The notes below the pieces were generated by a model. It saw only the letters and a list, made by a program, of their open reading frames with translations, did not search any database and had not been told where the DNA came from. Position numbers and translations under genes: made by a program. Shown one piece after another: positions 1,290 to 22,481 of a stretch of DNA of 22,481 nucleotides (positions are counted from its first letter, which is position 1; each line of letters opens with the position of its first letter). Source of the DNA: Entophlyctis helioformis (taxonomy: Eukaryota; Chytridiomycota; Chytridiomycetes; Chytridiales; Chytriomycetaceae). Location: positions 1 through 22,481 of the forward strand of contig JAHLKH010000300.1 in NCBI GenBank assembly GCA_025526915.1, in the 5' to 3' direction.

Positions 1290-3963
1290 CGCTCACCTTG
1301 TGCAGTGCAGACTTGGCTTGGTGCTTGCGCAGATCGTCGCCCGACTTGAACTGCCGCTCGCACAGCAGACACGCCATGATCGACAGGTCGCTGTACTCTT
1401 CGTTGACCGCTCCCTCGGACGGAAGCCGCTGCTCGCCACGCTCGTCAGTCCCATCCAGCATCCCATCCAGCATCCCATCCAGCATCCCATCCAGCATCCC
1501 ATCCAGCATCCCATCCAGCATCCCATCCAGCATCCCATCCAGCATCCCATCCATCCAGCATCCAGCATCCCAGCCTGCACTTACGGCCATGAGCGCCTCG
1601 TCCGAAATGTCCACAACAGCCGGCCGGTCCAGCTCAGACACGTCAAAGTCCTTGAGCTCCTCGTGCTTGCTCTGCCACTTTTGCAGCTGCACAGCGATGC
1701 GCTTGGTCGTGCCCGTCGCTGCCTTCTTGGCAACCCCCTTCTTGCCCGTGCCCGTGCCCGTGCCCGTGCCTGCCCCTGCACCAGCGACGCTCGCGTCGCC
1801 TGCCCCGCTGGCATCCGCACTCGCCTCCTTGGACGAGACGAGACTCGGATCGCCGCCCGTCTCGCTGTCAGCCACGTTCGAATAGAATGTCGCCAGCTGA
1901 TCATCCAGCCTGGCTTGTGGCTGCTGTGGCGGGCGGATGACGGCTGCTGTTGCTGTTGCTGCTGCTCCTGCTGCTCCTGCTGCTGTGGCTTTACTGGCAG
2001 CCACTGAACTGCCGCTGGCACTCCCAGTGGCACTCCCAGCTGCATTCCCAGCTGCATTCCGGACATGGCCACCAAGCAACCACGACGGCGCGCATTGCAG
2101 CGGCTGGTTGGGCGGATACTGCACCGTGTACGCCTGCTCGTCCCAGTACGCAACGAGCAGATGGCCGCCAGACGGCTCGACATACGTTGCGCTGACCCAC
2201 GGCGACGATGTGTACACGGGCAGGAAGCTCTTGAGGTGCGAGTAGGCGACGGCAACCACGCGGCCGTCAATCACGAGCGGCTGTGGGCTCTGCTGGTTGT
2301 AGATGAGCCCCAGCAGGTAGTTGGCAGCCTGGAAATGGAGGCAGTGGGCTCGCGTCAGTCTCGGCCCAAACAGCAGCCAGCTGTGCCGTGCGTCTGTGCG
2401 TGACGTACATCCAGATCCTTGAACTCGGCAAACGCAAAGCCGTACGACACGCGGCTGGCCCGCCCTCTGACCAGCCGCACGCCAAGCAGCGGCACGACGG
2501 CACTCATCTGGCTGTAAAGCTGTTCAACAAAGGCATCCATGTTAGCAAACGCAGCCAGGCGGACCATCTTGTTTGGCGCAACTCACCGCCTCGTCGGTTG
2601 TGAGCGGGTCCAGGCCACGCAGCAGCAAGATGGGATTGGGCACATCGCCAATGTCGCGGCTGCCATCATTGGCCACTGCCGCCACGTCCAGCACAGTCTT
2701 GGGCACATGGCACACAAAGCACGCCGTCCTCCACGTAAAGTTTTTGCTCAGACACTGCACTCTGTGTCAGCGAGACTGTCCACCTTGTCTCGTTCCACCG
2801 TGCTCCATCACGCTCATCCAGCACACACGAGTGCGGGAATCGTTGGGTACCTTGGCACACGTCCAGTCCTCTTCCGACACCTTGGGTAGCGTGGCATACT
2901 CCATGCGCACGCGCATGCCGCCCAGCGTGAGCCCATGCGTACGCATCGACAGCCACGCCGTCGACTCCTCGATGCTCGGGAACCGTACAAACGCAAACCC
3001 GCGCGACTTGCCCGTCTCGCGGTCGCGAATGATCCGCACGCTTTCGGCGTTGGCATTGTCCTGCATGAGCACGGCCTCGATCTGCGTCGCAGCCGTCCAG
3101 TACGATGTGATGCGTCCGATGTGATGCGTCCGATGCGTCCCGCCAGATCCGAACCAATCCATCCCCGTCCGGTCGTGCGAGGGGGGTGGTAGACACTGGG
3201 TCAATAACTGTTCTCAAGTCGACACACGGGTGTGCACAGGGTGGTCTCAACAAGACTCTTGATGGTGGCGATGATGATGATGGCGATGGTGGTGGTGGTG
3301 GTGGTGAAGGGAGATGGAAAAGAGGCGGCATACGTCTGCTTCGACCGTCGTGAACGGCAGGCCGTTGAGGATGAGCGCTTGCGTGGGGTTGCCCTTGCGT
3401 GAGAGCGGCGTGACAGACTGGCGGCCACATGGCGATGGGTTAGTGTCCGTGCTCTCGGGTGTCATTGCTGCCCGCACACGTACGCCCTGGCTGGTGGTGT
3501 TGATCGTGGTGTTGCTGCTGTCGTATCGGTCGTGTTGCCAGCGACCGCGGTCACGGCTGCGGTCACGGCTGCGAGACCTGGAGTGGCTGCGAGACCTGGA
3601 CCAAGAGCGGGAACGGGACCTGGAGCGGGACCTGGAACGGGAGCGAGACCTGGAACGGGAGTGGCTGTACGGCCTGTTGCGACCACGGCCGGGGATGCGG
3701 CCTCGGCTGTCGCGCACATGGTCTCGGCTGCTCCTCGCTCGGTGCCGGTCTCTGCTCGGGCTGCGGCTTCTGCTCCGCGGCCTGCGGGCTGGCGAGCGGG
3801 CACCTCGGCGGCTGCCTACCGACCTGCCTGCAGACAGCGCCTTGTCCTCCGAGTGCGTCGACGGATGGGCATGCTGCTGCTGTTGCTGCTGCTGGTGGTA
3901 TCGCTCTCTTGGCGGCGGGCTGAGCGACCGTCGGCGGCCGCCAGAGCCATCTCTGTCGGTCAT
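701..3963 (-). CDS. RBM5/RBM10-like RNA-binding splicing regulator (RS, RRM, RanBP2 ZnF, RRM, C2H2, G-patch)
   Basis: Eight coding exons: 3484-3963, 3334-3417, 2851-3081, 2587-2754, 2409-2519, 1585-2328, 1297-1428, 701-1228. All have lengths divisible by three, giving about 825 aa, close to human RBM5. In order the protein has an RS-rich N-terminus; RRM1 (ALILNGLPFTTVEAD, spliced to IEAVLMQ, with RNP1 KSRGFAFVRF); a RanBP2 zinc finger split by an intron (DWTCAK then CLSKNFTWRTACFVC); RRM2 (ILLLRGLDPLTTDEA ... SYGFAFAEF); a low-complexity middle; a C2H2 finger (MACLLCERQFKSGDDLRKHQ); and a G-patch (NKGSRMLQKMGWKAGTGLG). This architecture is known for RBM5/6/10 proteins, which control 3' splice-site choice in early spliceosomes. 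I do not see the tyrosine-rich OCRE repeats found in animal members. The start is the ATG at 3961-3963 (MTDRDGSGG). The 3' end is provisional: beyond the G-patch the frame ends at 701, but another frame (PNAYQEQARG followed by GTAAGC) suggests a possible further exon. Confidence 0.9.
1264..1288. repeat. (CA)n microsatellite in RBM intron 7
   Basis: A run of CA dinucleotides fills much of the 68-nt intron 1229-1296. On the coding strand it is (GT)n just after the GTGAGC donor. Confidence 0.85.
1449..1571. repeat. 12-bp minisatellite in RBM intron 6
   Basis: About 8-9 tandem copies of CATCCCATCCAG occupy the intron 1429-1584. On the coding strand each copy reads as a GGATGGGATGCT unit with no in-frame stop, so an unspliced transcript would encode a repeated Asp-Gly-Met-Leu stretch. 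Confidence 0.9.
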
Positions 3964-6807: not shown

Positions 6808-7508
6808 TCAGAAGAGCATGACGGCAGAGAGGGCAATCAGGGCAGTCATCACAAGGCCGCCCGCTACAACCGGTCGAGGAGCGGCCGAGCGAGCAAGCGG
6901 CGATGCACTGGCGGCAGGCGCAGCAGGTGCAGTGACGGCAGCGCCAGACGGAGCCGCGGCAGCAACGGTAGTGGTGGACGCCGGCGTGGCCGTGGAGTTT
7001 GACGCTCCCGCCGACAGATCGAGCATGACGTCCGAGCAGGCGTAGAGCACGCCGTCGGGAGTGGTGGCGACAATCTGGACCGTGGCCGGCGCCTTGGCCG
7101 ACGCAGCGGGGATGGCCGACAGGTCAAAGGCGAGGTCGTAGACACCGACCTTGGTCAGAGAGACTGCGCCAATCTTGTACGAAAAGTCGGCCGCCTGTGG
7201 GTTGGCGCCGAGGCCAAGGCGGACCTCGACGTTGCCGTTGGCATCGGCAAAGCGGATGGAGATGGGCGACTCTGCAGGAGTGAGACGGCGGTGAGACGGT
7301 GGTGAGACAGCGGTGAGTCAGCAGTGAGACAGCACCACTTACTGGGGCCAAACGACGAGCGGGTGGGCGACGTGGCGTTGAAGCCGCCGCAAGGGCCTTG
7401 CGGTTGGATGAGCTCGTCGAAGCCGCGGGGAGCAGGCGTCGTGACGGTAAAGTGCGCAGACACGGACGAGGCAGCAGCAAGAGTGGCAAGGAGGGCAGTG
7501 GTGAACAT
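6808..7508 (-). CDS. BIM1/X325-type copper-binding LPMO-like protein, GPI-anchored
   Basis: Two exons (7343-7508 and 6808-7271, phase 1, intron 71 nt) encode 209 aa. Residues 1-18 are a clear signal peptide ending in SVSA. Cleavage would expose an N-terminal histidine in HFTVTTPAPRGFDELIQPQ followed by PCGGF. This is the hallmark of the X325/BIM1 family, LPMO-like proteins that bind copper through the N-terminal His but act in copper handling rather than polysaccharide oxidation. The core continues with SPISIRFADANGNVEVRLGL and a strand-rich domain to about residue 140. A Ser/Thr/Ala/Pro stalk and a hydrophobic C-terminus (VMTALIALSAVMLF) predict GPI anchoring at the cell surface. The intron contains short GTGAGAC-type repeats. 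The function is transferred from the family. Confidence 0.88.
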
Positions 7509-7953
7509 GGTGTGCGAGGGCGAGGCTGTGCGAGGGCGAGACTGTGAGTGTTGCGTGATTTGTGCGTGGATGGGGGAAAAGTGGCTCACTGGATGAGCAT
7601 TTAACGGCGCGCGGCATTAATGCGGTGCCACCAGGAGAGTGCCACACGCACGCCACTGAGGTTTCAAGGGATGCTCGCACTGGCGGGCGCACTTGTGCAC
7701 GCTGTTCGGCCGTCATGCCGGACGATGGTGCTGCGGCTTGGGCTGGCTGCGGAGCGTGAGCGAGCTGCTCAGTTGCTGTGCCGTCGGCTGCAGCCGCTGC
7801 AGGTGTTGCTGGGCTGCCTTCGTGCTCTGCGACTGGCGCATCCGTCTCGGCGTCTGGCCGCATGGACCGATCACTCATCGCTGATGTCGATGTTGCACAG
7901 AAAGTTCATTGCATGACAGTCTAGCATATGTTGGTACATGGAAGAGGGCATGG
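7509..7953. other. Intergenic: BIM1-like promoter and LRR gene 3' flank
   Basis: 445 bp. An ATG at 7876-7878 on the minus strand opens an Ala/Pro/acidic frame (MSDRSMRPDAETDAPVAEHE) that runs on into the BIM1-like exon in another frame. It has no recognisable domain and I do not call it a gene. No other feature was seen. Confidence 0.4.
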
Positions 7954-10900
7954 TCAGAACAGGGCGAGAGGGGCAAGGAGAGCAGCAACGACCGAGACGA
8001 TCGAGGCAGCCACAGAGCCGGCACCGCTGAGAATGGGCTCTCCCTCGGGTAGATCGTGCTTGTTGTAAATACCGCCGTTGTTGCCATCGCCGTAGATGCT
8101 ATAACCGCCATCTCCAGAGGAGGGAGACGCTGACGGCTGGCCGCCATAGACTGCATTGGTTGTGGAAGCAGGGACACCTGGAGTAGCGGTCACTGTGATG
8201 GTGACGGCAGTTGCGTTGGCATCAACAGTGGCCGTACGAGATGGGTTGGGAGGCGCGATCGTCACGGTGACCACAGCCGAGGCAGACGCGGTCGGGTTGA
8301 CGGGGCCACCAGTGGCAGAGGCAGTCGGTGTAGCAGGGCCAGCAGAGGCAGATGCAGTCGGGTTCACGGGACCATTGGGACCAGCAGTGGCAGACGCGGT
8401 CGGTCCGGTAGGTCCATCAGGGCCAGCAGTGGCAGACGCGGTCGGGCTGACGGGTCCATCAGGGCCAGCAGAGGCAGACGCGGTCGGGCTGACGGGTCCA
8501 TCAGGGCCAGCAGAGGCAGATGCGGTCGGGGTTGACGGGTCCATCAGGGCCAGCAGAGGCAGATGCGGTAGGTCCGGCAGGTCCATCAGGGCCATCAGTG
8601 GCAGACGCGGTCGGGCTGACGGGTCCATCAGGGCCAGCAGAGGCAGACGCGGTAGGTCCGGCAGGTCCATCAGGGCCAGCAGAGGCAGATGCGGTAGGTC
8701 CGGCAGGTCCATCAGGGCCATCAGAGGCAGATGCGGTAGGTCGGCAGGTCCATCAGGGCCAGCAGAGGCAGATGCGGTAGGTCCGGCAGGTCCATCAGGG
8801 CCATCAGAGGCAGATGCGGTAGGTCCGGCAGGTCCATCAGGGCCAGCAGAGGCAGACGCGGTCGGGCTGACGGGTCCATCAGGGCCATCAGTGGCAGACG
8901 CGGTCGGGCTGACGGGTCCATCAGGGCCAGCAGAGGCAGACGCGGTCGGGTTGACGGGTCCATCAGGGCCAGCAGAGGCAGACGCGGTAGGTCCGGCAGG
9001 TCCATCAGGGCCAGCAGAGGCAGATCGGTAGGTCCGACAGGTCCATCAGGGCCAGCAGAGGCAGACGCGGTCGGGCTGACGGGTCCATCAGGGCCATCAG
9101 TGGCAGACGCGGTCGGGTTGACGGGTCCATCAGGGCCAGCAGAGGCAGATGCGGTAGGTCGGCAGGTCCATCAGGGCCAGCAGAGGCAGATGCAGTCGGG
9201 CTGACGGGTCCATCAGGGCCATCAGTGGCAGACGCGGTCGGGCTGACGGGTCCATCAGGGCCAGCAGAGGCAGATGCGGTAGGTCCGGCAGGTCCATCAG
9301 GGCCATCAGTGGCAGACGCGGTCGGGCTGACGGGTCCATCAGGGCCATCAGTGGCAGACGCGGTCGGGTTGACGGGTCCATCAGGGCCAGCAGAGGCAGA
9401 TGCGGTAGGTCCGGCAGGTCCATCAGGGTCATCAGTGGCAGACGCGGTCGGGTTGACGGGTCCATCAGGGCCATCAGTGGCAGACGCGGTCGGGCTGACG
9501 GGTCCATCAGGGCCATCAGTGGCAGATGCGGTCGGGCTGACGGGTCCATCAGGGCCAGCAGAGGCAGACGCGGTCGGGTTGACGGGTCCATCAGGGCAGC
9601 AGAGGCAGATGCGGTAGGTCCGGCAGGTCCATCAGGGCCATCAGTGGCAGATGCGGTCGGGCTGACGGGTCCATCAGGGCCAGCAGAGGCAGATGCGGTA
9701 GGTCCGGCAGGTCCATCAGGGCCAGCAGAGGCAGATGCGGTAGGTCCGGCAGGTCCATCAGGGCCAGCAGAGGCAGACGCGGTCGGGCTGACGGGTCCAT
9801 CAGGGCCAGCAGAGGCAGATGCAGTCGGGCTGACGGGTCCATCAGGGCCAGCAGAGGCAGACGCGGTCGGGCTGACGGGTCCATCAGGGCCATCAGTGGC
9901 AGACGCGGTCGGGTTGACGGGTCCATCAGGGCCATCAGTGGCAGATGCGGTAGGTCCGGCAGGTCCATCAGGGCCAGCAGAGGCAGATGCGGTAGGTCCG
10001 ACAGGTCCATCAGGGCCAGCAGAGGCAGATGCGGTAGGTCCGCAGGTCCATCAGGGCCAGCAGAGGCAGATGCGGTAGGTCCGGCAGGTCCATCAGGGCC
10101 ATCAGTGGCAGACGCGGTCGGGCTGACGGGTCCATCAGGGCCATCAGTGGCAGACGCGGTCGGGCTGACGGGTCCATCAGGGCCATCAGTGGCAGACGCG
10201 GTCGGGCTGACGGGTCCATCAGGGCCATCAGTGGCAGACGCCGGTCGGGTTGACGGGTCCATCAGGGCCATCAGTGGCAGACGCGGTCGGGCTGACGGGT
10301 CCATCAGGGCCATCAGTGGCAGATGCGGTAGGTCCGGCAGGTCCATCAGGGCCAGCAGAGGCAGATGCGGTAGGTCCGGCAGGTCCATCAGGGCCATCAG
10401 TGGCAGACGCGGTCGGGCTGACGGGTCCATCAGGGCCAGCAGAGGCAGATGCGGTAGGTCCGGCAGGTCCATCAGGGCCAGCAGAGGCAGATGCGGTAGG
10501 TCCGGCAGGTCCATCAGGGCCATCAGTGGCAGACGCGGTCGGGTTGACGGGTCCATCAGGGCCATCAGTGGCAGACGCGGTCGGGCTGACGGGTCCATCA
10601 GGGCCATCAGTGGCAGATGCGGTAGGTCCGGCAGGTCCATCAGGGCCAGCAGAGGCAGATGCGGTAGGTCCGGCAGGTCCATCAGGGCCATCAGTGGCAG
10701 ACGCGGTCGGGCTGACGGGTCCATCAGGGCCAGCAGAGGCAGATGCAGTCGGGCTGACGGGTCCATCAGGGCCAGCAGTGGCAGACGCGGTCGGGCTGAC
10801 GGGTCCAGCAGTCGTTGTGGAGGCCCCCGTTGTCGTGCGAGCCACAGAAGTCGTGCGAGCCACAGTTGTCGTCATCGTGGTCGTCTGAGGGAGCGTCGGC

Positions 10901-13603
10901 ACAACACCCTCACCTTTATGCATGCATGCATGCAAGGCAAGGCAAGTATCAGTACCGTGCACTGTCACTGGCCAGCTGCATCCAGTCGCGTCGCACACTT
11001 ACACCGAGGGACTTGGCACAAGGGAGGGAAGTGTTCTGGGTAGCAGACCGCCGTGAACGCGCCCGTGCAGAAGAAGATGGACTTGTCCTTGAACGACTCG
11101 GGGAGCGGGTTGTACAGCTGGTAGTTGTTGTTGAATGCAAACGCCTCGAGCTTCTGGAGGTCACCAATCGACGACGGGATGGTGCCTTGGAGCAGGTTGT
11201 CGTTCAGGTAGCTGTGCATCGCCAGGCCCGGCAAGGCGAGTGTCAGTGGTCGGCTGCCGGCATGGCACTCTGATGCTGGGCCGCCAGGCGTGGCACCACT
11301 TACAGACGCTCAAGCAGCTTGATGTTTCCAAAGAAGGCAGGCACAGGTCCGCTGAGCTGGTTGTCTGACAGATCGACCCAGCGGAGCGTCTGCATGTTGC
11401 CGAGGTACTCGGGGATGATGCCAGTGTACTTGTTGAAGCGAAGCTCGCTGTGGCATGAGCGTGTGCATGAGTGTGTGCATGAGTGTGCGTGCTGATCAGA
11501 GTCGCATGTCGTGCAATCCCGGCCACGATCGGCTGTTCGTGCTGGTCAACTTACAGTTTGGACAGCTTGGACAGCGCGCGGACATCAGGAAGCGAGCCGG
11601 TGAGGCCCTGCTTCTCAAGCAGACTGGCAAGCAGAGAGGCAGAGGGACACAGAGGTAGATGGACACAAACACAAACACAGAGCGACAGATAGTGAGTGGC
11701 ATGCGACAGGGACGGCGCAGCAGACGAGCATGCCACTTACACCTGCGTCACAAAGTCGTCGTCGTCGCACTTTGCGAACCGGTACACGTCTCTGTTGGTG
11801 CAGCAGTCGGACTCGTAGCCAGAGAAGACGGTGGGGAAAGCACCCGCGAGCACGTCGCAGTCCTTGCACTTCTTGGTGATGCCACAGGCCGGGCCAGTGC
11901 GGCCGGCAGGAAGACACATGGCAGTGCCAAGACCAGTGCAGGTCGTGCCGGCCTTGAGAGAGAGCAGAGGGCCGCCAAGGCCGGCATTGCGGGCGAACTT
12001 GAGCGTGTCGAGCTTGGCGAGCGTGTCGGGAATGCGGCCAATGAGCGCGTTGCCTTCGAGCGAGACAGACGTCAGCAGAGGCAGGGCGGTGCCGAGCTCA
12101 GCGGGGATCGTGCCGGTCAGTGCGTTGTTGTCGAGCTGCAGGCTCTTGAGGCTCTTGAGCTTGAAGAGGTCGACTGGGAAGTCGCCCTTGATCTGCTTGT
12201 TGTTGGACAGGTTGATGGCAGTGATCGAGCCAGAGGTATCGCAGGTGATGCCGGGCATGTTGTTGCAGCAGTCGGCCTTGACGGTCACGGCAGGGAACGC
12301 AGCGCTGAGGATGCCGCACTCGGACGGGCCTTGATGGCGGGCAGCCGTCGAATGCGGGGCACAGCAGGTGCATTGAATGGAGCCAGAGTGGTGCCAGAGT
12401 GGTGTCAGAGTGGTGCCAGAGAGCTGTCAGCAAACAAGCGCCATGGGCCGGATGCACAGCCAGCAGCAGGCGTCACTCACAGGCAGCGAGGCTGCAGGAC
12501 ACGCCAGAGTGGCTGGGGCCAAGACAGACATCCGTGGTGGTGCCATTGCAGGAGGCGAGCGTTGCAGTGAAGCCGGTCGGGAACGGGCCTTCGAGGGCCG
12601 GGTTGTCGTCGAACCTGAACGAGCGGAGGGACTTGAGGTCCTTGAGCTCCGACGGGATTGTGCCAGTCAGGAAGTTCGAGGCGACGGATCTGTGCGGCAA
12701 GAAGAGGAGGAAGAGGAGGAGGAGGAGGAGGAAAAGCGGATGGTTCCGCACATGAGACGGGTCCCAGAGCACGTGGTCGATGGATGATGGATGACGATCA
12801 GCATGGCGCGGAGGTTGCCGCAGGTGTGGCAGGACATGGCAGGACATGGCAGGACATGGGCAGGATATGGCAGGACATGGGCAGGACAATGGCAGACGGC
12901 GTTGCTTACAGCGTCTTGAGCTTGGTCAGCTTGGCGAGCGACGCCGGGATGGGGCCAGTGAACTGGTTGCGCGACAGAATGCTGCCAGTGGCAAGCGGTG
13001 GTGCACGGGCAATGACGAGCAAGGGCCATGGTCGATGGCGCAGATGTGTGATGGGGAGCCAGGTTGAACAGACGGGTCAATGGATGCGCCGATTGAGCCG
13101 GCAGACATGTTTCGCGATGTGGCCAGGCGAGGGGCCAGACAAAGGGGGCAGGACTGCCACACGGCGTATACTGGCGAGAACCTACAGAGTGTCCAGCTGC
13201 GAGAACGTCGACAGCTGCTCGGGGATGGGGCCGACAATCTTCTGCTCGTCGAGGTTGCTGGTGGGCGGGAAAGACACGATGGAAGGGCGATGGTGCACAG
13301 CAACGGCGGTCAGTCGGTGGCGGTGGGCACTCGGCTGTGTGTTGGATTGGCCTTTGATGGCTGACCATCACCAGCCGTTGGCTTGGCAATCGTTGGCATG
13401 ACGAGCAGAGGGCACAGGACACAGGGGACACAGATACGGGTGTATGGCATATGCACTTACAGCGTCGTCACAAAACCATTGTCGTCACACTTGACCTCTT
13501 CGGAGAACTTGCAGCAAGACTTGACCGGCGTGAACGTGCCAGGATACAGTGCACGCAGCACCGTGCACTCTGCCGAGACAGCCACTGCCTGCGTGGACGA
13601 CAT
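7954..13603 (-). CDS. Three-module extracellular-type LRR protein with long GPDGP repeat stalk (frame broken in repeats)
   Basis: Nine exons: 13461-13603, 13186-13257, 12910-12981, 12481-12689, 11741-12329, 11555-11623, 11304-11447, 11003-11211, and about 7954-10913. The protein holds three copies of a module made of a Cys-rich header ([11 protein letters not shown]...CC...[22 protein letters not shown]...DCC...[14 protein letters not shown]...DCC...[10 protein letters not shown]), plant-type LRRs ([18 protein letters not shown]) and a Cys-rich cap. Most LRR exons are 69-72 or 144 nt with phase 2 at both ends. Module B lies in one exon, as if its introns were lost. The last exon is a 14-residue repeat stalk ([14 protein letters not shown]) and ends in a Gly/Ser region and a hydrophobic tail ([16 protein letters not shown]) suggesting a GPI anchor. 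As assembled, an extra C near 10239 stops translation at 10228 (about 729 aa); without indels it would be near 1,490 aa. No signal peptide follows the ATG at 13601-13603. The AAAG acceptor at 10914 is weak but phase-consistent. Confidence 0.8.
8340..10815. repeat. 42-bp coding minisatellite, nearly 60 copies
   Basis: Tandem units such as GGTCGGGCTGACGGGTCCAT plus the following 22 bp, encoding 14 residues on the minus strand ([42 protein letters not shown] variants). V-S, V-N and A-G unit types are interspersed, indicating repeated unit shuffling. At least six single-unit length changes of one or two bases are visible (near 8527, 8738, 9030, 9150, 9595, 10038 and 10239). The opposite strand is also open for long stretches and looks collagen-like, but this is a by-product of the repeat. 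Confidence 0.95.
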
Positions 13604-14155
13604 TGGGTTGATGATAGCGAGGGGAGGGTCTAACGCCGTCCCTTTTATTGGCGTTCTGGCGAGACAAGCAAATTTGTGCGACACGGTTGCCACGTTACGC
13701 CGTCGGACAACTCCACCATACGATGGCGATGAAGGGCACATCCGCCGTACTGCGCAATGGGTTGCCGCTTCTGACCAATCATTTGGGCTCGTGTTGGCTA
13801 ACGGCTGCGGCGCACACGATGAATCACATGGAGAACAATCACTCCATCGTTCATCGCCAACGACATCGTTACGACACGTCTTCATCGCCAACGTGTTGCT
13901 GGCAAGGAAGGCGTCACACCCAGCCATTATGGCATCACCTTGGTCAACGCCAGCTCGAGAGTCTCGGGCAAAGCGATGTACATGTGTCTGCCAGCCAGCG
14001 AACAGCACTTCAGCACACAGGAGTGTGGGACACCCACCTATGCGAGACGACGTTGCATGTTGATTCTGGCGTTCCACACTTGGCATCGAGAAATGACATC
14101 ATGGTCTAATGGGTTGCGTTCAACTTTGCAACATTTAAAACTTTTCATGTGAAAT
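13604..14155. other. Intergenic between LRR gene and tRNA
   Basis: 552 bp with AT-richer stretches than the flanking genes. It holds a short direct repeat (TCATCGCCAACG, twice near 13851-13900) and an AT-rich ACATTTAAAACTTTTCATG just upstream of the tRNA. No gene was found on either strand. Confidence 0.5.
13641..13651 (-). promoter_or_regulatory. TATA-like element of the LRR gene
   Basis: On the minus strand CCAATAAAAGG lies about 38-48 bp upstream of the ATG at 13603. Its position suggests a very short 5' UTR and supports this ATG as the first codon. No experimental support. Confidence 0.4.
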
Positions 14156-14228
14156 GGCTCTGTGGCCCAATGGATAGGGCGTTGGACTTCGGATCCAAAG
14201 GCTGGGAGTTCGAGTCTCTCCAGAGTCG
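14156..14228 (+). tRNA. tRNA-Arg(UCG)
   Basis: A 73-nt cloverleaf without intron: acceptor GGCTCTG/CAGAGTC (one G-T pair), D stem GCCC/GGGC with loop AATGGATA, anticodon stem TTGGA/TCCAA with loop CTTCGGA (anticodon TCG, reading CGA), variable loop AGGCT, T stem GGGAG/CTCTC with loop TTCGAGT, discriminator G. It is the only plus-strand gene found. Confidence 0.95.
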
Positions 14229-14235
14229 ATTTTTT
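14229..14235 (+). terminator. RNA polymerase III T-run terminator
   Basis: Six consecutive T (14230-14235) begin two bases after the discriminator base of the tRNA, the usual Pol III stop. Confidence 0.85.
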
Positions 14236-14509
14236 GCTCCCTCTTTTGCTTACTGTGTGTGGTAATGCCTTCCTTTTATCCTCCTCCAACGTAAAACTCT
14301 GACCTTCTCTCCTCGCTGCTCACCTAGTGGCCAAACGCTTTCACGAGCATGACATCTGTGTCTTTGGGACTGGGACTTTTCTTCTTGGAATGAACACCGG
14401 CATTGCCAATAGAAAGCGCAGTGTCATCATTGATACGAGGTGTTTAATGTGAGGCGCAGATGGTAGGTGTGCTACTAATGAGGTTTGGTCTAAAACGAAA
14501 ACGAGTTGA
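14229..14509. other. 3' flank of SLA1-like gene
   Basis: 281 bp between the tRNA and the SLA1-like stop codon, probably containing the 3' UTR. No gene was seen. Confidence 0.5.
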
Positions 14510-17500
14510 TCATTGGAAACCAGATCGGCCCATTGCAAACTGCTGCTGCTGTTGCTGCTGTTGCTGCTGCTGCAAGAGAAGCTGCTGTTGTTGCTGCGGC
14601 GTAAGGCCGGCCATATTCATGCCCATGTTCATCTGTGGGTTGAAGCTGTTGACAGACGCACCTTGCATGCCCATGACACCCATGACACCCATGCCGCCCA
14701 TGCCATTTCCAGCCATTCCCATCATGCCAGCATTGGCTGTGTTGGGTAATCCGCCCATGCCGATGCCCATACCCATGCCCATGCCCATGTTGCCCATGTT
14801 AGGTCCAGCTGCCATGTTGGGACGAATCGTCTGGTTGTTGAACGCGTTGATACCACCAATAGGTTGCACGCCAGCTCCGGTTGATGCGACAAACGCGGGC
14901 GTAGTGGCCTGCATGGTGTTGACGGTGCCCATGCCGCCCATGCCCATGCCCATGTTGCCAAAGGCAGCTTGCCCGGCCTGAGCAGGAAGAGCCATGCCGG
15001 GACGGAACGCAGCAGCAGCATTGTTGTTCATGCCGCCAAAAGCGCCAAACGCTCCGGCCGGCTGATTCATCTGCTGCTGTTGCTGTTGCTGATTCTGCTG
15101 CTGCTGCTGCTGCGCGACAGTGGCGGCACTCTGGTTGAACAGCGACGGAGCGGCGGGATTGACTTCCTTGAATGCTGCGTATCGGTCGTTGGAGGTAATA
15201 GCAGGGCCAGTCGGCGCAGGTCCAAACGGCATCTGCGGCGTTGTGTTCATCCAGTTGGGTCGAACAACGCCGGCCGGTGTCACCATCGTCTGGATGCCTT
15301 GCGCAACGCCGGCACCAGTGCCCATCGCAGGCTGCTGGGCGACTGGACCCGTCGGGACAAAGCGGCCAGATCCACCCGTGTTGGTCGGGATGAGCGGTGC
15401 GGGAAGAGGACGAGCCTGCATGGCCGCAGTCTGAGCCTGGATCGCTGCACGCTGCTGGGCCTGCAGGAGCTGCTGCTGCGCGTTAATCTGCTGCTGCTGT
15501 GCTTGCAACTGCTGTTGCTGCTGAGCGACCTTGAGCATAGCCTGCTGCTCGAGGAGGGCCGCCTGGCGGTTCTGTTCCTGCGCACGCAAAACGGCCTGCT
15601 CGGCACTTGCAATCGTACGCTTGGCCTCTTCCTGCTGCATCTGGATCTTGAGAAGCTGCTCCTGGGTTGCCGCATTGCGGCCAGGGCTTGCCGAGCCACC
15701 CCACGGGTCGCTGCTGTTGCTGGCGCCGGCAGGACCGCCAAAGGCGCCGCCGATGCTTTTGAGACCGAGCGAGCTGGCGGCATTGACTTCCTGTGTAGAC
15801 GGCGGAACATTGAAGCTTGTTGTGGATGCATTCGAGACGTTCGACGTGCGGCGCACGGTGGGCGGACTTATCCGGGACGTGTTGGATGCCTTGAGCAGAT
15901 TTCCGGCCTGCTGAATGGTCGCCATGTTGACCGAGTTGCTTTGGCCGCCAACCGAAGGTTTGCGAGAAGCAGCCGATCCAGCGCCAGGCACGCTGAGGCC
16001 GCTCGAGGTAGCCGTTGAGCCATTGCGAGCCAGCCGGTTTTCCTGGTTCTGCAACTCGCGAGCAAAGGCCTCGTCGGCCTTGATCTGCTCCAAGCTTGCT
16101 GTGGACGACGGCTGGCCAGATGACTGTGCTCTCATGGCCATGCGAGCGTCGAGCATCTGCAGGTTGCGCGCCTGAGCCTCCTTCTCCCGTGCTGCAGTCA
16201 GCTGCTGCGTGGCAGGTGTCAGCGAGGGCAGGTTGGCGGCTTTGCGGATGCGGATGATGTCGCCCTCGGTGATACCCATGGCGCGCAGTGCATCGCGGTC
16301 AAGGTCGGGCAGAATCGTCTGATCCATGTGCTGGTCTGCGAAGCGTCGGCCAAGCGACTCGGCGTCCTTGGATGCGAGGCCGGCCTTGATGAGCCACTCG
16401 CGCCAGTTGAAGCCGTTGTGGGTGAACTCGCTGGCCGACGCGCCAGAGCCACCGGCAAGGTTCATGGTCGAGCCGCCAGTCTTTGGCTTGGGCGGTGCAG
16501 GAGTCGCACCGCTAGCTGCAGCCAGATGCTCGTTTCCAGGAAGTGACTGCACATACTCGACATCCGCCGGGCTCAGCTTCTCGAGAGGCACCGCGATCTT
16601 GACGCCGTTGGATTTGTGCAGCTGCACCTTGCCTTCGCTCAGGCCGACATACGCAGCATCCACCTCAAATGAGCCAGAGCGGTCTTTCCACTTGCGCAGC
16701 TTGGACGGATCGGGCACTGCCAAGCAAACGATCACAGTTTGATAGTGAGCAACAAGCCGATCCACCAATATATCCACTGTCAGCCTACAAACTGCGTACT
16801 CTCGTTTGCCGGCTTGACCTTGGTGTCTTTCGGCGCGCTTGTAACGGGCCGCGATGCAGGAACTTGCGGACGGTCTGGGATGGACGGCGCATTCGACAGA
16901 GGCTTCCTTGCTGCCAGAGCAGCAGCCAGCGTGGGCTGTGCAGGTGGTGCAGGAGCAGGCGGTGCAGGCGGTGCAGACGCAGGTGCAGGAGGTGCAGGAG
17001 GCGGTACGGGCGATGTGACAGCAGCGGGGCGGGTGGGAAGCCTTGGCGGCTCGACCACTGGTGGACGAGCGGCAGCAGCAGCCTGCTCTTGCTTGAGCCG
17101 CTCCTCTTCAGCATGGCGGCGCTCCTCCTCTTCGCGCTTGCGGCGTTGCTGCTCCTCGTCGCGTCTCCGTGCATCCTCCTGTGCCTTGCGGCGCTGGTCT
17201 TCCTCGCGCTGTCGAGCAGCTTCATCAGCACGACGCTGAGCCGCCTCTTCCTCGCGACGGCGTGCTTCGAGAGCAGCATTGTCTGGGCCCTGGTGTGCGG
17301 GAGATGCAGCGCCAGACTGCAGCTCAACATACGTCTTGGGAACAAGACCCTCGGCACCAGGTCTGCCAACGATGCGCACAAGCCACCAGTCGGGATCCGT
17401 ATCGTCCATAACCACGACTTTGTCGTTTTCGCGGATCTGGAGCTCGCCCTCTTCGACCGGGTCGTAGTCGTACAGTGCAAGGGCAGTCTTGACTGGTGCG

Positions 17501-19207
17501 GTTGCCGCGCTGCTGAGAGAAGCAGGCGATGGCGATGGCGGCGGAGGGCGGGCTGCTGCGACAGGCAAAGTGGGTGTCATGGCAGCTGCAATCGGAACAG
17601 GAGCAGCAAATGTTGTCTTGGCGCTGGGCGGCGATCCGCTGACGACATTGCCGTTCTTGGTCTGGATGGATCAACGGACAGATGCTGGTCAGTTGTCTAC
17701 ACAGCGGTTGTAGACAGATCATTAGGACGGCAATCACCTTGTTGAGAACCTGCTCGAGCTCGGCCACAGCGCCATGGACATCGACCTTTTCGCCCTCGTA
17801 GTCCTTGGCATCCTTGCCCTCAAACTCCAGGACAAGCTTGGTCTTCTTGTCCTTATAGCGGGTCAGCTCTTTGATGGGGATTTTCGAGATGATCTCTCGG
17901 GACTGCCTCGCGGCATCGGCAGGAAACGAGTAAGCAGGCAGCTTTGCATCCATGCTTGAAATGAGCTGCTCTGGCGCTCTTGCCACTTACAGGGTCTTCA
18001 ACAAAGTAGATTGCGCCGTCCTGATCGCTGAATCCAAGAAGACCCTTCTTGCTGTTCTTCTTCTTCTTCTTGTCGATCTCAGTCAGCGGGTAGTACTTGA
18101 TGTCGTCAGGGCCGTACATGTGGGCAGCCATGTTCCTGGGTTCAGACTTGGGCTTGACGAATCCAAGGCCGTTGAGGGCGTTCAACAGCTGGTGTTTCTG
18201 CTGCTCGGGCTGGAAGGATGCCTGATCGGGCGAGCCAGAGCGCACCTCGGCTGGAAGCGGCGGCAGTGGTGCCTCTGCAGGCTGGCCATCCAGCGAAGAT
18301 TGCTAGAGAGGATCCATCCGATGCCGTTTGTTGGGCATGGCAGCTTGCGTCAGCACCCAACGCAACAAGATCGCCGTTTGCCTAGCGTGCGGGCAGATCT
18401 GGGCTCATGGGCGGAAGAATCGCAGCGAGCCAGCGCCTGGTGCACCAGGCCATCACAACAAGCACCCACCTCTTCGACGTAGGTGGCGGGGATGAGGCCG
18501 ACGTTGTGGTCCTGCTTGACAAACCACCAGTCTGCATCGACCTTTTCGTAGACCCTGACAAGATCGCCCTCACGGATGGAGATCTCCTCGTCGGTGTTTG
18601 GCTCGTAGTCGTATATTGCGGTGGCCAGGCAGACTGGCGTTGCCTGCCAAATGCCAGGCGTTGGTACAGATAGCGGTTGGCGATGGGCAGGTCGTGCGTC
18701 CGTGCGGAAAGGGCAACGCAGGGCGCAGTCAGCAAGCATGGCTGCATATGATCCGGCAGGCTACTGGCTGCCCATCTCGCTGGCTGCCAAGCTGGCCGGG
18801 CATGCCACTGCCAACACAGCAAAGCACTGTGTGCTGTTCTGCGCTGTGCAAAGCGCCGTGTCTGGCTGGCGGCGCAGACTAGGGCAAGGGCACAGCAGCG
18901 CAGCAGCAGAACAGCCAGGGCTGCGCAGTGGAGCAAGGCGTCTGGCACAAGGGGCAGGCATCGCAGACAGGCATCGCAGTCAGACACGCAGCCTCGGCAG
19001 CGGCCAACGCACCTCTTCGACATAGGACATGGGGATGAGGCCCGAGCGAGCCTCCTGGAAGGCGTCTGCCGGCTTCTCAGTGGCTGCCCACCAGTCCTGG
19101 TCGGTGTCGTCTGTGATGAGCAGGATGTCGCCTTCGCGGATCGACAGCTCTTCGTCTGTCTGGGCGACGTAGTCGAACAGTGCTCGTGCGACTATCTTGC
19201 ACTGCAT
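14510..19207 (-). CDS. SLA1: SLA1-like endocytic actin-patch adaptor (three SH3, SHD1, SAM-like SHD2)
   Basis: Six exons (19013-19207, 18470-18643, 17991-18302, 17738-17941, 16800-17661, 14510-16716; phases 0,0,0,0,1) encode about 1317 aa; yeast Sla1 has 1244. SH3-1 is residues about 4-64 (ARALFDYVAQTDEELSIREG ... DWWAA ... SYVEE), SH3-2 about 66-122 (ATAIYDYEPNTDEEISIREG), and SH3-3 about 353-412 (ALALYDYDPVEEGELQIREN). A conserved region with a lysine run (KKKKKNSKKGLLGFSDQDG) lies between SH3-2 and SH3-3. After SH3-3 come an Arg/Glu-rich coiled coil and a Pro/Ala linker. SHD1 follows at about 584-643 (LRKWKDRSGSFEVDAAYVGL), known in yeast to bind NPFxD cargo signals. SHD2/SAM is at about 680-745 (FNWREWLIKAGLASKDAESL). 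The tail is Gln/Met/Gly-rich with PTG motifs and polyQ, ending in MGRSGFQ. Known role: coupling cargo to Las17/WASP-driven actin assembly. The ATG at 19205-19207 is the only in-frame start before SH3-1. Introns are 369, 167, 49, 76 and 83 nt. Confidence 0.93.
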
Positions 19208-19520
19208 CTGGTCGTTGTGGTCGCTGTGGTTGCTGTGATTGCTGTGGTCGCTGTGGTTGTGGTTGTTGTAAAACGCGGCTGAGGGGTGGGCAATAGGGCG
19301 AGGGAATGCCGGCAGTTGCCGGCAAAATGCCCGACATCCAAACAATTACCAAGAATCATTGAATTAAATTGGACGCGAGAGGCGTCGAATGTAAGGCAGC
19401 ATAACACACGATTGAAGGTTCGAGTCAGCAACCAGCATGGACGACAGGCGGGCGAGGCACATCCAACGAGGGTCTTACCTTCGTAAAGTGACCCTATTGG
19501 TCGATCGGAGGTGCCCCGAT
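19208..19520. other. Gap between Fanzor-like stop and SLA1-like start; candidate guide-RNA/element-end region
   Basis: 313 bp. Next to the SLA1-like start is a 9-bp repeat of the CTGTGGTTG type (about 19210-19268), probably in the 5' UTR. There is a 5-bp hairpin GACGC-GAGAG-GCGTC at 19372-19386, and a stem ATCGG...CCGAT at 19504-19520 directly abutting the Fanzor-like stop codon. In known Fanzor loci the guide RNA derives from sequence at and beyond the 3' end of the gene, so this is where it would be expected. Nothing in the sequence proves it. Confidence 0.3.
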
Positions 19521-22372
19521 TCATATTGTGCTGGAAGTCACAGCACGTGGAGTTGCATGTGCCTTGCTGGCTCGTGACCGCGGACAGACCGTGTCCGTGG
19601 TGGAGGCGGCAGGACGATGGGCGGATCGGGTGGTCTTGGAGGCCGGCTGGTTGACAGGCAGCTCAGGTACTGGAAGCTGCTGGACGACAGGCTGACTGGC
19701 CTTTGTGTGTGTCAAGTAGAGCGGCCGCTCTCCATCGAGCAAATGCCCCAGTGCGACCATTCCGATGTTGGTGGCTCCAAGCACGTCTCGGTGTAGACGG
19801 CCTTGCATGCTGTGCACTCGTAGCGTCGCAGGTTGGTGCGGTTCTTGTATGGGATGCGCTGCTTGCACTGCGGGCACATCTGGCTGGTCAGGTTCTCGTT
19901 GCAGCGGTAGATCTGTGTGTGTGAGTGCATGATCGTGTGGTCAGTTGGTGCACAGATGGATAGATGGATGGCATGGCATCAGACGCACATAGGCATATCC
20001 AGACGACCGCAGATGCCTGATGAGAAACTTCTCAAACACAGCGTGCCGGCCACCTTGGCCTGTAAAGTCGATGCCAATGCCCACACAACGGGAATGTCCT
20101 TCTCTGTTGGCTTGTCACAGCGACCTTGAGATGCAGCAGATGCGCGCTTTCCAGTGGTCGATCCTGCCAGCTTCATGATGCCTTCAAGAGCATGTCCGCG
20201 AATAGACATGCTGTTGCTGCGCATGGAAAAACGCTCGGCCTTGACCTTCTGTGGAATTGCCATGCCATGCCACTCCAATGCAATCAGCAGGCGATCAAGC
20301 AGCATGGCGATCATGCCGATATGCATTCAGAAGCAGAGAAAAACATACCTTTGCATTCAGGAATGTCGAGCAATACGCCAAGCAGCGAAGATCCCAAAAG
20401 GCTCTCTCGCCAGGCTTGACGTTTGGATCGGCATGCTTTGCTGTCTTGAAGGCAATTGCCTCATGGATGTCGGCTGCCTTGGCATATCGGCCATTGAACC
20501 TGGCACAAGAGACAGGCGCTGTGAGTTGATCTGGTCAAGAGTGCACAGAGTCATTGCATACATTACCATCGCAGAAGTTCGCGCTCAGCTTGAAATAAGC
20601 CAGAGGAGAGCACATAGTTGGACTCGTGCGTGTATGTGCCGGTATTGACGTTGAGCAGCATGCTGGACGCGCCAAACAGGTACCGCTGGCCCCAGTCTAG
20701 ACTGACAACGCGAACAGTCTCATAGCCCTTGTCGGCGAGCAGCTTGTTGGCATCAGCAACATCAGGTAGTCGCTGGGATGCATTGAAGTTGCGCTTGGCC
20801 TGTCATGCCATGGCATGAGTGAGGGATGTGCAATGCATGTGCACCAATGCGCGAGGTTAGCATGCAAGTGACATACAAGGTTTGGCACTTTTGGCTTGGC
20901 AGCTGTGGATGGCATGTCAGTTGGTGTGGACAGCAAGTACGCGTCTGGATTGGCACAGCAACTCACATTCGCCGTTGAGGTAATCAGGCACACAATCAGC
21001 CTCATTGGCAAGACTGGGAAGCTCGCATGAAGACGCCGTGTCGGGACCTGCGAAGCAAGGCGGCGGTTAGAATTGATGTGTGCACCAAAGCATCCAAGCA
21101 CGGCACATACTGCAAGGCGACTCTGGACGGTCTGTGCGATAATCGCGAACCAACTGGCCGACGCTGTATCCGTTCGAGATGACGCTACTCATCCGTGTCC
21201 GTTTGGTTGGTCTCGCTGGGGGTAGAGCATCAACCGCAGCCTGGATGAAGTCCTTGCGCTCCTTGCCACGCAGACGCTGCTTCTTGGCCTCTTGCGTCGC
21301 CTTGGCTCTAGCCGCTTTCTTGGCCTTGGTGTTGGCTGCGTCCATTTCCGCTTCGGCTTCTGCCGGCGTTTGATACCGGCCTTTCTTGGGGCGGAGGCCG
21401 GGAAGCAGGACGTCCATGACGCAATTCTCGCGACTCGAGCTGAATGCCTTCTTGATCTCGCTGTCGGTTGACTTGAGTGTCAACTTTTTCGAGCCAGGCT
21501 CTTTGAGAAAGGTGGATTGTTAGTATCAAATCATAAAAAGATGGCACAAACAGGCAGTGCAACTTACTGATCGCAGCAAGTAGCTCCTTTCGCAGTGCTT
21601 GCAAAGCAGGATCCTGCCCCTTGCTGTCGCGCTCCTTCTTTGTCCCCATCACAGACCAAAAGAGTGTCCTCTCTGTGATGAGAACGAAAGGGTCGCAGCT
21701 TGCCGGCTGCGGGCAAAGCTTGATGCTCTGTCTCCCAGCGAGATTGCGCAGCGCATGGAACTTGCCGGGATGCGACAGCGACTCACTGAGCACAATCGCA
21801 GCGAGCTCGTCTAGCTCTGGAGGTAGCACGACAACGGCCTTGCCCTCTGTGGCTGAGGAAGAGCTGGATGCTGCGGCCTTCTTGCTGCGTGGCTTCTTTG
21901 GTGCGTCCTTGCCCTCCGTGGCTGGCGATGGGCTCGGCGCCGCGCTCTCGGTGGTGGCAGCCTTCCCGACACATGGCTTCTTGGCGTCCTTGGCAGCGGC
22001 GGCCTTAGCACGCGTGGCTTCTTGGCGGCTTTGGCAGGCAGAAGCGGGCGTCCTTGGCAGTGGGTCCTTGCCGACGCGTACCTTCTTGGCTACGCCGCCC
22101 TTGTCGGTGATTGAAGTGCTGGACGCGGTCCGCTTGTGGGTTGGCGCGGGGTCCTTGCCGACGCGTACCTTCTTGGCTACGCCGCCCTTGTCGGTGATTG
22201 AAGTGCTGGACGCGGTCCGCTTGTGGGTTGGCACGGCGTCCTCAGTGGCAGCCTTCCCAACGCGTGGCTTCTTGGTGGCTATGGCAGCAGCAAGCCCTGG
22301 CGTCCCTGGCGGCTTTGGCAGCTGTCCCTGACGGCTTTGGCAGCAGCGCGCTGGCGGCGTTGGCAGCAGCAC
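19521..22372 (-). CDS. Fanzor-like RNA-guided endonuclease (eukaryotic TnpB homologue), multi-exon, two frame breaks, 5' end incomplete
   Basis: Eight exons: about 21568-22372, 21111-21500, 20967-21047, 20877-20902 (26-nt microexon), 20567-20799, 20349-20499, 19989-20248, 19521-19912. Six junctions preserve frame with GT-AG motifs, and the first listed intron has a TACTAAC branch point. The N-terminus is basic with NLS-like KKPRVGK/KKVRVGK motifs. The Lys/Arg-rich middle leads into RuvC-I (VRVVSLDWGQRYLFGAS, catalytic Asp), a helical WFNGRYAKAADIHEAIAFK segment, then VKAERFSMRSNSMSIRGHAL and GIGIDFTGQGGRHAVFEKFL. RuvC-II (YRCNENLTSQ, Glu) precedes a zinc ribbon (MCPQC ... YECTAC) and RuvC-III (HRDVLGATNIGMVALGHLL, Asp). 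This order is that of Fanzor/TnpB nucleases, which cut DNA guided by an element-encoded RNA. Two breaks exist: two surplus bases near 20081-20086 and one missing base at 19793/19794. No ATG is seen in the N-terminal frame, so the start lies upstream. It is either a recent pseudogene or damaged by assembly errors. Confidence 0.83.
22064..22237. repeat. 87-bp tandem duplication in Fanzor-like N-terminus
   Basis: Two nearly identical 87-bp copies (22064-22150 and 22151-22237) encode 29 residues each, including THKRTASSTSITDKGG and VAKKVRVGK. The duplication keeps the frame and doubles an NLS-like motif. Confidence 0.9.
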
Positions 22373-22481
22373 GGCTTGGCGGTCTCAGCGTCCCTGGCTT
22401 TCTTGATCAGGTACGTAGTCCACGCCGTCGCTTGCTTGGGAGTTGAACTGCGCACAAGCTTGAGGCACGCTGCAAACACCA
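22373..22481 (-). other. Upstream part of Fanzor-like N-terminal region, frame uncertain
   Basis: An open minus-strand frame runs to the window edge (QATAWTTYLIKKARDAETAK), different from the frame used below 22372. The K/A-rich character continues, so this is probably the same gene, joined by an unseen intron or a frameshift. Confidence 0.35.

Follow-up and report, generated by a model that had tools for sequence, protein, structure and literature searches.

The last part of the window, by which we mean the whole 22,481-nucleotide stretch of Entophlyctis helioformis contig JAHLKH010000300.1 (C300) that was analyzed, appears to be the 3′ third of a ~9.9-kb transposon copy. The 3′ part of this transposon encodes a Fanzor1-like RuvC nuclease (D-E_alt-D plus a C4 zinc ribbon), which is preceded on the same strand by an XPG/FEN1-like region that probably belongs to the same many-exon gene. 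RNA-guided copying of the element is proposed, and we put the probability of this reading at roughly 0.78. The assembly itself shows conserved motifs and splice joints, copies whose nuclease core is open, a high copy number, sharp ends with duplications, and a conserved 3′ block. Its sequence establishes that the Fanzor-like gene is real and resides in a multi-copy transposon; RNA guidance, an omegaRNA, and DNA cleavage are predicted from it. Sequence comparison also goes beyond the initial annotation, adding the upstream XPG-like region, two types of element ends, DWG in RuvC-I, and introns that are, taken as a whole, better conserved than exons.

Gene structure and assembly of the window copy

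The initial annotation had placed a spliced Fanzor-like gene at 19521..22481 on the minus strand. This span holds the last eight exons of the transposon copy; the gene runs off the contig end, with its start outside the window, the element extends about 6.6 kb further 5′ (based on the copies on C98, C15, and C121), with C300 ending inside it, and the transposon right end lies at about 19281. The 5′-most exon in the window (21568..22481, on the minus strand like all exons below) encodes an N-terminal Lys/Ala/Pro-rich linker, which bears out the annotated long basic N-terminal part, together with a CPQPASCDPF segment. It is open at the contig end, its frame is uncertain 5′ of about 22384, and an 87-bp tandem duplication (22054..22227) lies within the coding region of the linker.

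Seven core exons follow. Core exon 1 (21111..21500) holds the stretch with the SNG/TDG motif, and its joints are kept in most other copies; exons 2 (20967..21047), 3 (20877..20902, 26 nt), and 5 (20349..20499) were checked against the splice joints of other copies, and exon 4 (20567..20799) carries RuvC-I SLDWGQ (20703-20686). Exon 6 (19989..20248) shows a frame shift relative to open copies near 20081-20070. Exon 7 (19521..19912) contains NENLTS with the RuvC-II glutamate (NENLTSQ, from 19900), the C4 zinc ribbon, HRDVLGATNI (RuvC-III), the C-terminal tail, and the stop codon, with a second frame shift relative to open copies near 19795-19788 and part of the tail out of frame. All four annotated motifs were thereby located on the minus strand, and the eight exons have the expected GT..AG joints, most of which are kept in other copies. 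Splicing of these exons nevertheless leaves in-frame stops and no single open product, so that we rejected the reading of one intact gene for this copy, and the two frame shifts place its zinc ribbon and HRD in different frames.

These breaks may be assembly errors, since C300 duplicates part of contig C40 yet differs from it inside the repeat. Window positions 13066-19270 are 100% identical (rounded) to C40 over 6.2 kb, with lengths differing by 2 nt, and positions 17800-19299 show zero differences; the region from 7 to 13 kb is mostly collinear at 95–98% identity, whereas inside the element the two contigs are separated by 38 substitutions and 40 indel columns. Overall, C300 (window 7000-22481) corresponds to C40 at 152.5–167.1 kb, with near-identical unique DNA and differing repeats, and from its sequence C300 looks like a redundant contig covering part of C40. 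Judged from this comparison, the repeat consensus in the E. helioformis assembly is unreliable, and we read single-copy frame breaks and mosaic patterns accordingly.

Outside the element, the window contains long, highly repetitive Pro-Asp-Gly-rich open frames (7954-10998, minus strand), a tRNA-Arg (tcg) gene (14155-14229), and an SH3-domain host gene on the same strand as the element (16780-19173), which is SLA1-like only by an under-cut-off match and which, by eye, seems to start just past the element right end.

A multi-copy transposon with two types of ends

A six-frame search of the whole assembly with PF07282, the Pfam TnpB zinc-ribbon profile, (29.57 Mb, 482 contigs) yielded at least 150 places over the cut-off (150 of 150 scored, from 205 candidates). 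The window copy is absent from these 150 places; its zinc ribbon alone scored 24.0 bits, under the cut-off of 26.3. By DNA search, at least 20 other near copies at 94–99% identity, including the C40 twin, and further copies at about 77–82% were present among the best 40 of 290 candidates. Since Fanzor elements are already known to reach hundreds of copies (PMC3627910), a high copy number is by itself nothing new.

Complete type-A elements (C98, C15, C121) are ~9.8–9.95 kb long, beginning GAGGGGGGGGTAATTG.. and ending ..GCCCACCCCTC. The type-A right end of the window copy (19281..19329, minus strand) reads ..GCCGGCAACTGCCGGCATTCCCTCGCCCTATTGCCCACCCCTC and is followed by unique host DNA. The right end of type B lies about 48 nt earlier, at ..TATGAATATCGGGCC, and its left end reads GGCCCGGTTCTCATACC.., so that the same 3′ Fanzor-like module is, by sequence, found in two kinds of transposon ends. 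Among 46 stretches typed, 29 were type A, counting the window copy and its C40 twin, and 12 were distinct type B, the remainder being one duplicate, two that were cut off, and two without a match; type-A left ends numbered at least 40 genome-wide (best 40 of 84 candidates).

Target duplications were checked in 13 type-A copies, of which nine had both ends and four lacked the right end in the stretch examined. Perfect 9-bp duplications were found at C121, C178, and C144 and a 10-bp duplication at C38, with partial duplications at C15 and C13b and none at C13a, C1, or C98. All three two-ended type-B copies (C5, C12, C24) had perfect 8-bp duplications, a length typical of hAT-like elements. Comparison of the element with MULE/MuDR transposons showed 9-bp duplications and no recognizable terminal repeats, and Pfam recognized no transposase in the element pieces tried.

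Long open frames often begin close to an element end, at a distance of up to 250 nt, which suggests insertion near gene starts; frames with 250 codons or more were present in 13 of the 36 right flanks and in 1 of the 14 left flanks. Separately, a Ty3/gypsy-like frame, read by eye as an integrase that includes a part resembling a chromodomain, was seen in the sequence upstream of two copies (L039, L043), and at least 40 copies of this frame occur genome-wide (best 40 of 130 candidates).

An XPG/FEN1-like region upstream of the nuclease

Exons further upstream in the element read HVDVMSVF, YVFHVDGQ, HEADVCIARCA, ANDSDLV, and GRGIGFGAKFI. The acidic motifs HVD, HVDG, (H/Y)EADxCIA, and DSDLV and the G-x-G segment are common to three families (40–44% identity to the first) and form what we take to be the FEN1/XPG family pattern. 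Pfam XPG_I_2 matched in all three members examined, at E values of 0.014–0.18 that are all under the cut-off, and the XPG name therefore rests on the motifs. A genome search with PF00867 gave four matches, none at XPG-like loci, a protein search with the XPG chain recovered no relative among 7996 scored, and an NCBIfam search with the region gave no useful match.

XPG-like sequence is abundant, with at least 215 matches in the genome, 124 of which were clustered into 85 loci. A listed Fanzor place lies within 20 kb of 50 of these loci (35 are without), and at 48 of the 50, all testable, it is downstream on the same strand, with the XPG-like region about 5–14 kb upstream. The spacing falls between 4.5 and 9.5 kb at 38 loci, versus about 1 expected. 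On C24, a 750-aa open frame links a conserved middle domain with the Fanzor N-terminus, implying a protein that exceeds the ~800 residues given for large Fanzor1s (PMC10711439) even before the XPG-like part is counted. Coding blocks on C24 continue from XPG to block D5 with gaps of ~60–400 nt, the stretch 2032–3070 having been read by eye. Taken together, the XPG-like part probably belongs to the same many-exon gene and polypeptide as the Fanzor, by a splice chain that we joined by hand.

That hand-joined chain leaves a real possibility, which we nonetheless doubt, that the XPG-like region and the Fanzor are two neighboring genes in one transposon and not fused. In the accounts of Saito et al. 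(PMC10432273) and of Bao and Jurka (PMC3627910), Fanzors are separate genes, some of them beside other transposon genes, which would fit such an arrangement. On C24, however, the coding blocks are consecutive from XPG to D5, and one reading frame covers both the middle domain and the Fanzor N-terminus; these two observations argue for a fused gene. A literature search pairing Fanzor with XPG found no report, and XPG is unmentioned in the main texts of PMC10432273, PMC10711439, PMC3627910, and PMC11423790.

Coding state and constraint among copies

When group-A copies were read with the joints of the window copy, 3 of 21 were open over the seven-exon core (L011, L022, L023), one was open but partial (L029), and 17 had in-frame stops. 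The non-group-A set comprised 19 copies, eight of which (L001-L008) were left unscored because they are partial and were read in a fixed frame; among the 11 covering all exons, most joints were kept, six were open to the terminal stop (L030, L033, L035-L038), and five were not fully open. Nine copies in all are therefore open over the core. Their dN/dS in the RuvC core was 0.29–0.61 among 11 of 36 pairs listed, values that the choice of open copies biases downward.

The prevalence of broken frames (17 of 21 group-A copies and 5 of 11 of the others) could mean that the whole family is dead and its members are decaying relics of past transposition. We consider this unlikely given the nine core-open copies, dN/dS below 1 in the pairs listed, and the identity of at least 99% over most of the element among the copies on C98, C15, and C121, and since an unreliable repeat consensus could itself break frames.

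Relationship to Fanzors

The RuvC-II glutamate occupies the E_alt position, with the zinc ribbon starting six residues after it, and reads NENLTSQMC at all 39 distinct places compared, and HRD (RuvC-III) is likewise found at 39 of 39. RuvC-I reads DWG at 35 places, i.e., at all that were readable (4 were unread), and DPG at none. The zinc ribbon and HRD share one frame at 36 of the 39 places, the exceptions being the window copy, L019, and L082, and open copies show the RuvC D-E-D order, in which RuvC-II and RuvC-III flank the C4 zinc ribbon. A motif that may be the one of the wedge domain reads TDG at 15 and SNG at 20 of the 35 readable places. According to Yoon et al., DPG together with E_alt is a Fanzor fingerprint, with DPG near exclusive to Fanzors (PMC10711439, section 23), and TDG in the wedge domain is characteristic of Fanzor1 (PMC10711439, section 28).

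The spliced core of the open copy L023 matched PF07282 at 42.6 bits (cut-off 26.3). PDB sequence searches returned no relevant match, although Fanzor structures exist, and an AlphaFold model of P0001 alone (mean pLDDT 40) was not usable. The protein search recovered one relative, from E. helioformis itself, and no known Fanzor, and no relative was found in the viral contigs searched. The annotation of a Fanzor-like nuclease is therefore upheld in the D-E-D order, E_alt, the PF07282 match, and the transposon ends with duplications, and is qualified by the absence of DPG, by a copy that is broken as assembled, and by the gene being one member of a very large family in a composite transposon. Judged from its sequence, the protein would work like a Fanzor, while strict Fanzor membership is incomplete because DPG was not seen. 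The family might instead be a eukaryotic TnpB relative of the E_alt/D-hydrophobic-G kind, separately acquired from bacteria and later furnished with introns and its own transposon, as DWG fits the D-Phi-G class that Yoon et al. place in a different clade from DPG Fanzors (PMC10711439) and NCBIfam TnpB models match the zinc ribbon at 26–27 bits, far under their cut-offs, but the introns, the long N-terminal part, and TDG at 15 of 35 readable places (the other 20 being SNG) make this improbable.

A conserved 3′ block as omegaRNA candidate

Past the stop codon, ~190 nt of non-coding sequence (19330..19520, minus strand, ending ..TTGGTAATTGTTTGGATGTCGGG) share 83–89% identity with the five copies compared from other families, even though the C-terminal tail varies. 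This block, our omegaRNA candidate, reaches the transposon right end and matches in position the omegaRNA of SpuFz1, which spans the right end and 14–15 nt beyond (PMC10432273, section 7). Folding scores were weak (z of -2.23 and 0.36), and hairpins in the block had no covariation support: helices 1 and 2 are invariant, and helix 3 has five compensated and many broken cells. We therefore reject the idea that the omegaRNA hairpins are proven by covariation.

Uneven divergence between families

Similarity between families varies strongly along the element. Type A and C24 (type B) are 66–71% identical in most upstream matches, which rules out an earlier candidate reading of no upstream nucleotide similarity between families A and B, 76–77% identical in the last 2.3 kb of the gene, and 83% identical in the 3′ block. 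Type A and C178 are 95% identical over 0.6 kb at the left end, 67–68% in the XPG and middle parts, and 83% at the right. Synonymous sites are saturated or nearly so in XPG exon 1 (dS 1.07 to infinite), compared with dS values of 0.10–0.49 in exon 6 and 0.70 in exon 4 of the RuvC part. This unevenness would fit exchange or homogenization of ends between families.

Between families, introns (window 19913-21110) are better conserved, taken as a whole, than exons. Identity between A and B is 93–95.5% for introns 2, 3, 4, and 6 and 80–87% for introns 0, 1, and 5, versus 69–89% for exons; overall, introns diverge by 0.091 and exons by 0.218. Exon differences are transversion-rich, with a transition/transversion ratio of 1.01, compared with 3.06 in introns. 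Two candidate causes were rejected, namely A-specific mutagenesis as the source of exon divergence and CpG decay alone, non-CpG divergence being 0.193 in exons and 0.074 in introns.

Within type A, the copies on C98, C15, and C121, which keep at least 99% identity over most of the element, have one repeat-rich segment at 94–99%, but are mostly 93–98% identical in the last 1.5 kb and about 95% identical in the first 400 bp. Across 16 close copies (window 19272-21621), 210 of 288 minor alleles (73%) are also found in other families, versus 17% by chance, and linkage between variable sites is at background beyond about 30–100 bp. We did not accept mosaic copies as biology, given that C300 and C40 match each other in unique sequence yet differ inside the element, which points to an unreliable repeat consensus. 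Such allele sharing and linkage loss may reflect conversion with selection on exons, or assembly error.

Comparison with known Fanzor elements

E. helioformis is a chytridiomycete, which supports a chytrid host, and Spizellomyces punctatus, the host of SpuFz1, is likewise a chytrid. The Spu-1 element, which carries this Fanzor1, shares with the present one the RuvC and zinc ribbon, a non-coding block that extends from the stop codon to the right end (an RNA-encoding one in Spu-1, a candidate here), a high copy number (S. punctatus has 42 Fanzor loci as well as 134 ghosts), and Ty3 insertions at some copies (PMC10432273). However, Spu-1 is about 2.1 kb long, with a single ORF, 30–33-bp inverted repeats, and a putative TA target, whereas the E. 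helioformis element is ~9.9 kb long, with many introns, an XPG-like part, 8- or 9-bp duplications, and short ends.

Other likenesses are found among the elements described in PMC3627910. The MuDR-type Fanzor1 elements of Mucoromycota (ROr-4, PBl-3, MCi-4) also have 9-bp duplications and are described there as without their own transposase, but they carry inverted repeats as in known MuDR elements, and none were recognized here. CMe-1A of Cyanidioschyzon merolae reaches a similar copy number of about 150 per genome, at ~80% identity to its consensus, but is only about 3 kb long, with duplications reported as not determined. Chlamydomonas CRe-1, CRe-2, and CRe-3, which are Helitron2 Fanzor1 elements, have multi-exon Fanzor1 genes and high copy number, but differ in having Helitron ends and duplications that are variable in length or absent.

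Proposed mode of copying and implications

In the mechanism that we propose, the 3′ block would be transcribed as an omegaRNA. For type B, its 3′ end would run into flanking DNA and so take a guide from the insertion site; for type A, the RNA would either run ~48 further nt to the flank or carry a fixed, element-derived guide. The ribonucleoprotein would then cut the matching unoccupied site, and repair would copy the element into the cut, raising copy number, with the XPG-like part processing broken or flap ends. As no known transposase was recognized in the element pieces tried, integration itself may be supplied in trans.

A bolder version, which we hold to be a long shot, is that one protein, possibly some 1,900 residues long and uniting FEN1/XPG-type and Fanzor-type RNA-guided nucleases, would mobilize ~10-kb elements without a DDE transposase of their own and would be exchanged between the two end types, and that RNA-guided cuts near the right end (with the fixed element-derived guide in type A) would drive conversion among copies, keeping old exon variants in circulation while introns homogenize.

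Saito et al. (PMC10432273) describe what Fanzors do in their hosts as unknown. With at least 150 copies, nine of those compared being core-open, two kinds of ends, and a linked part that resembles a flap nuclease, the E. helioformis family would permit direct tests of whether a Fanzor helps in transposon copying and of its partner enzyme, and the combination of DWG with E_alt probes how sharp the proposed Fanzor fingerprint is.
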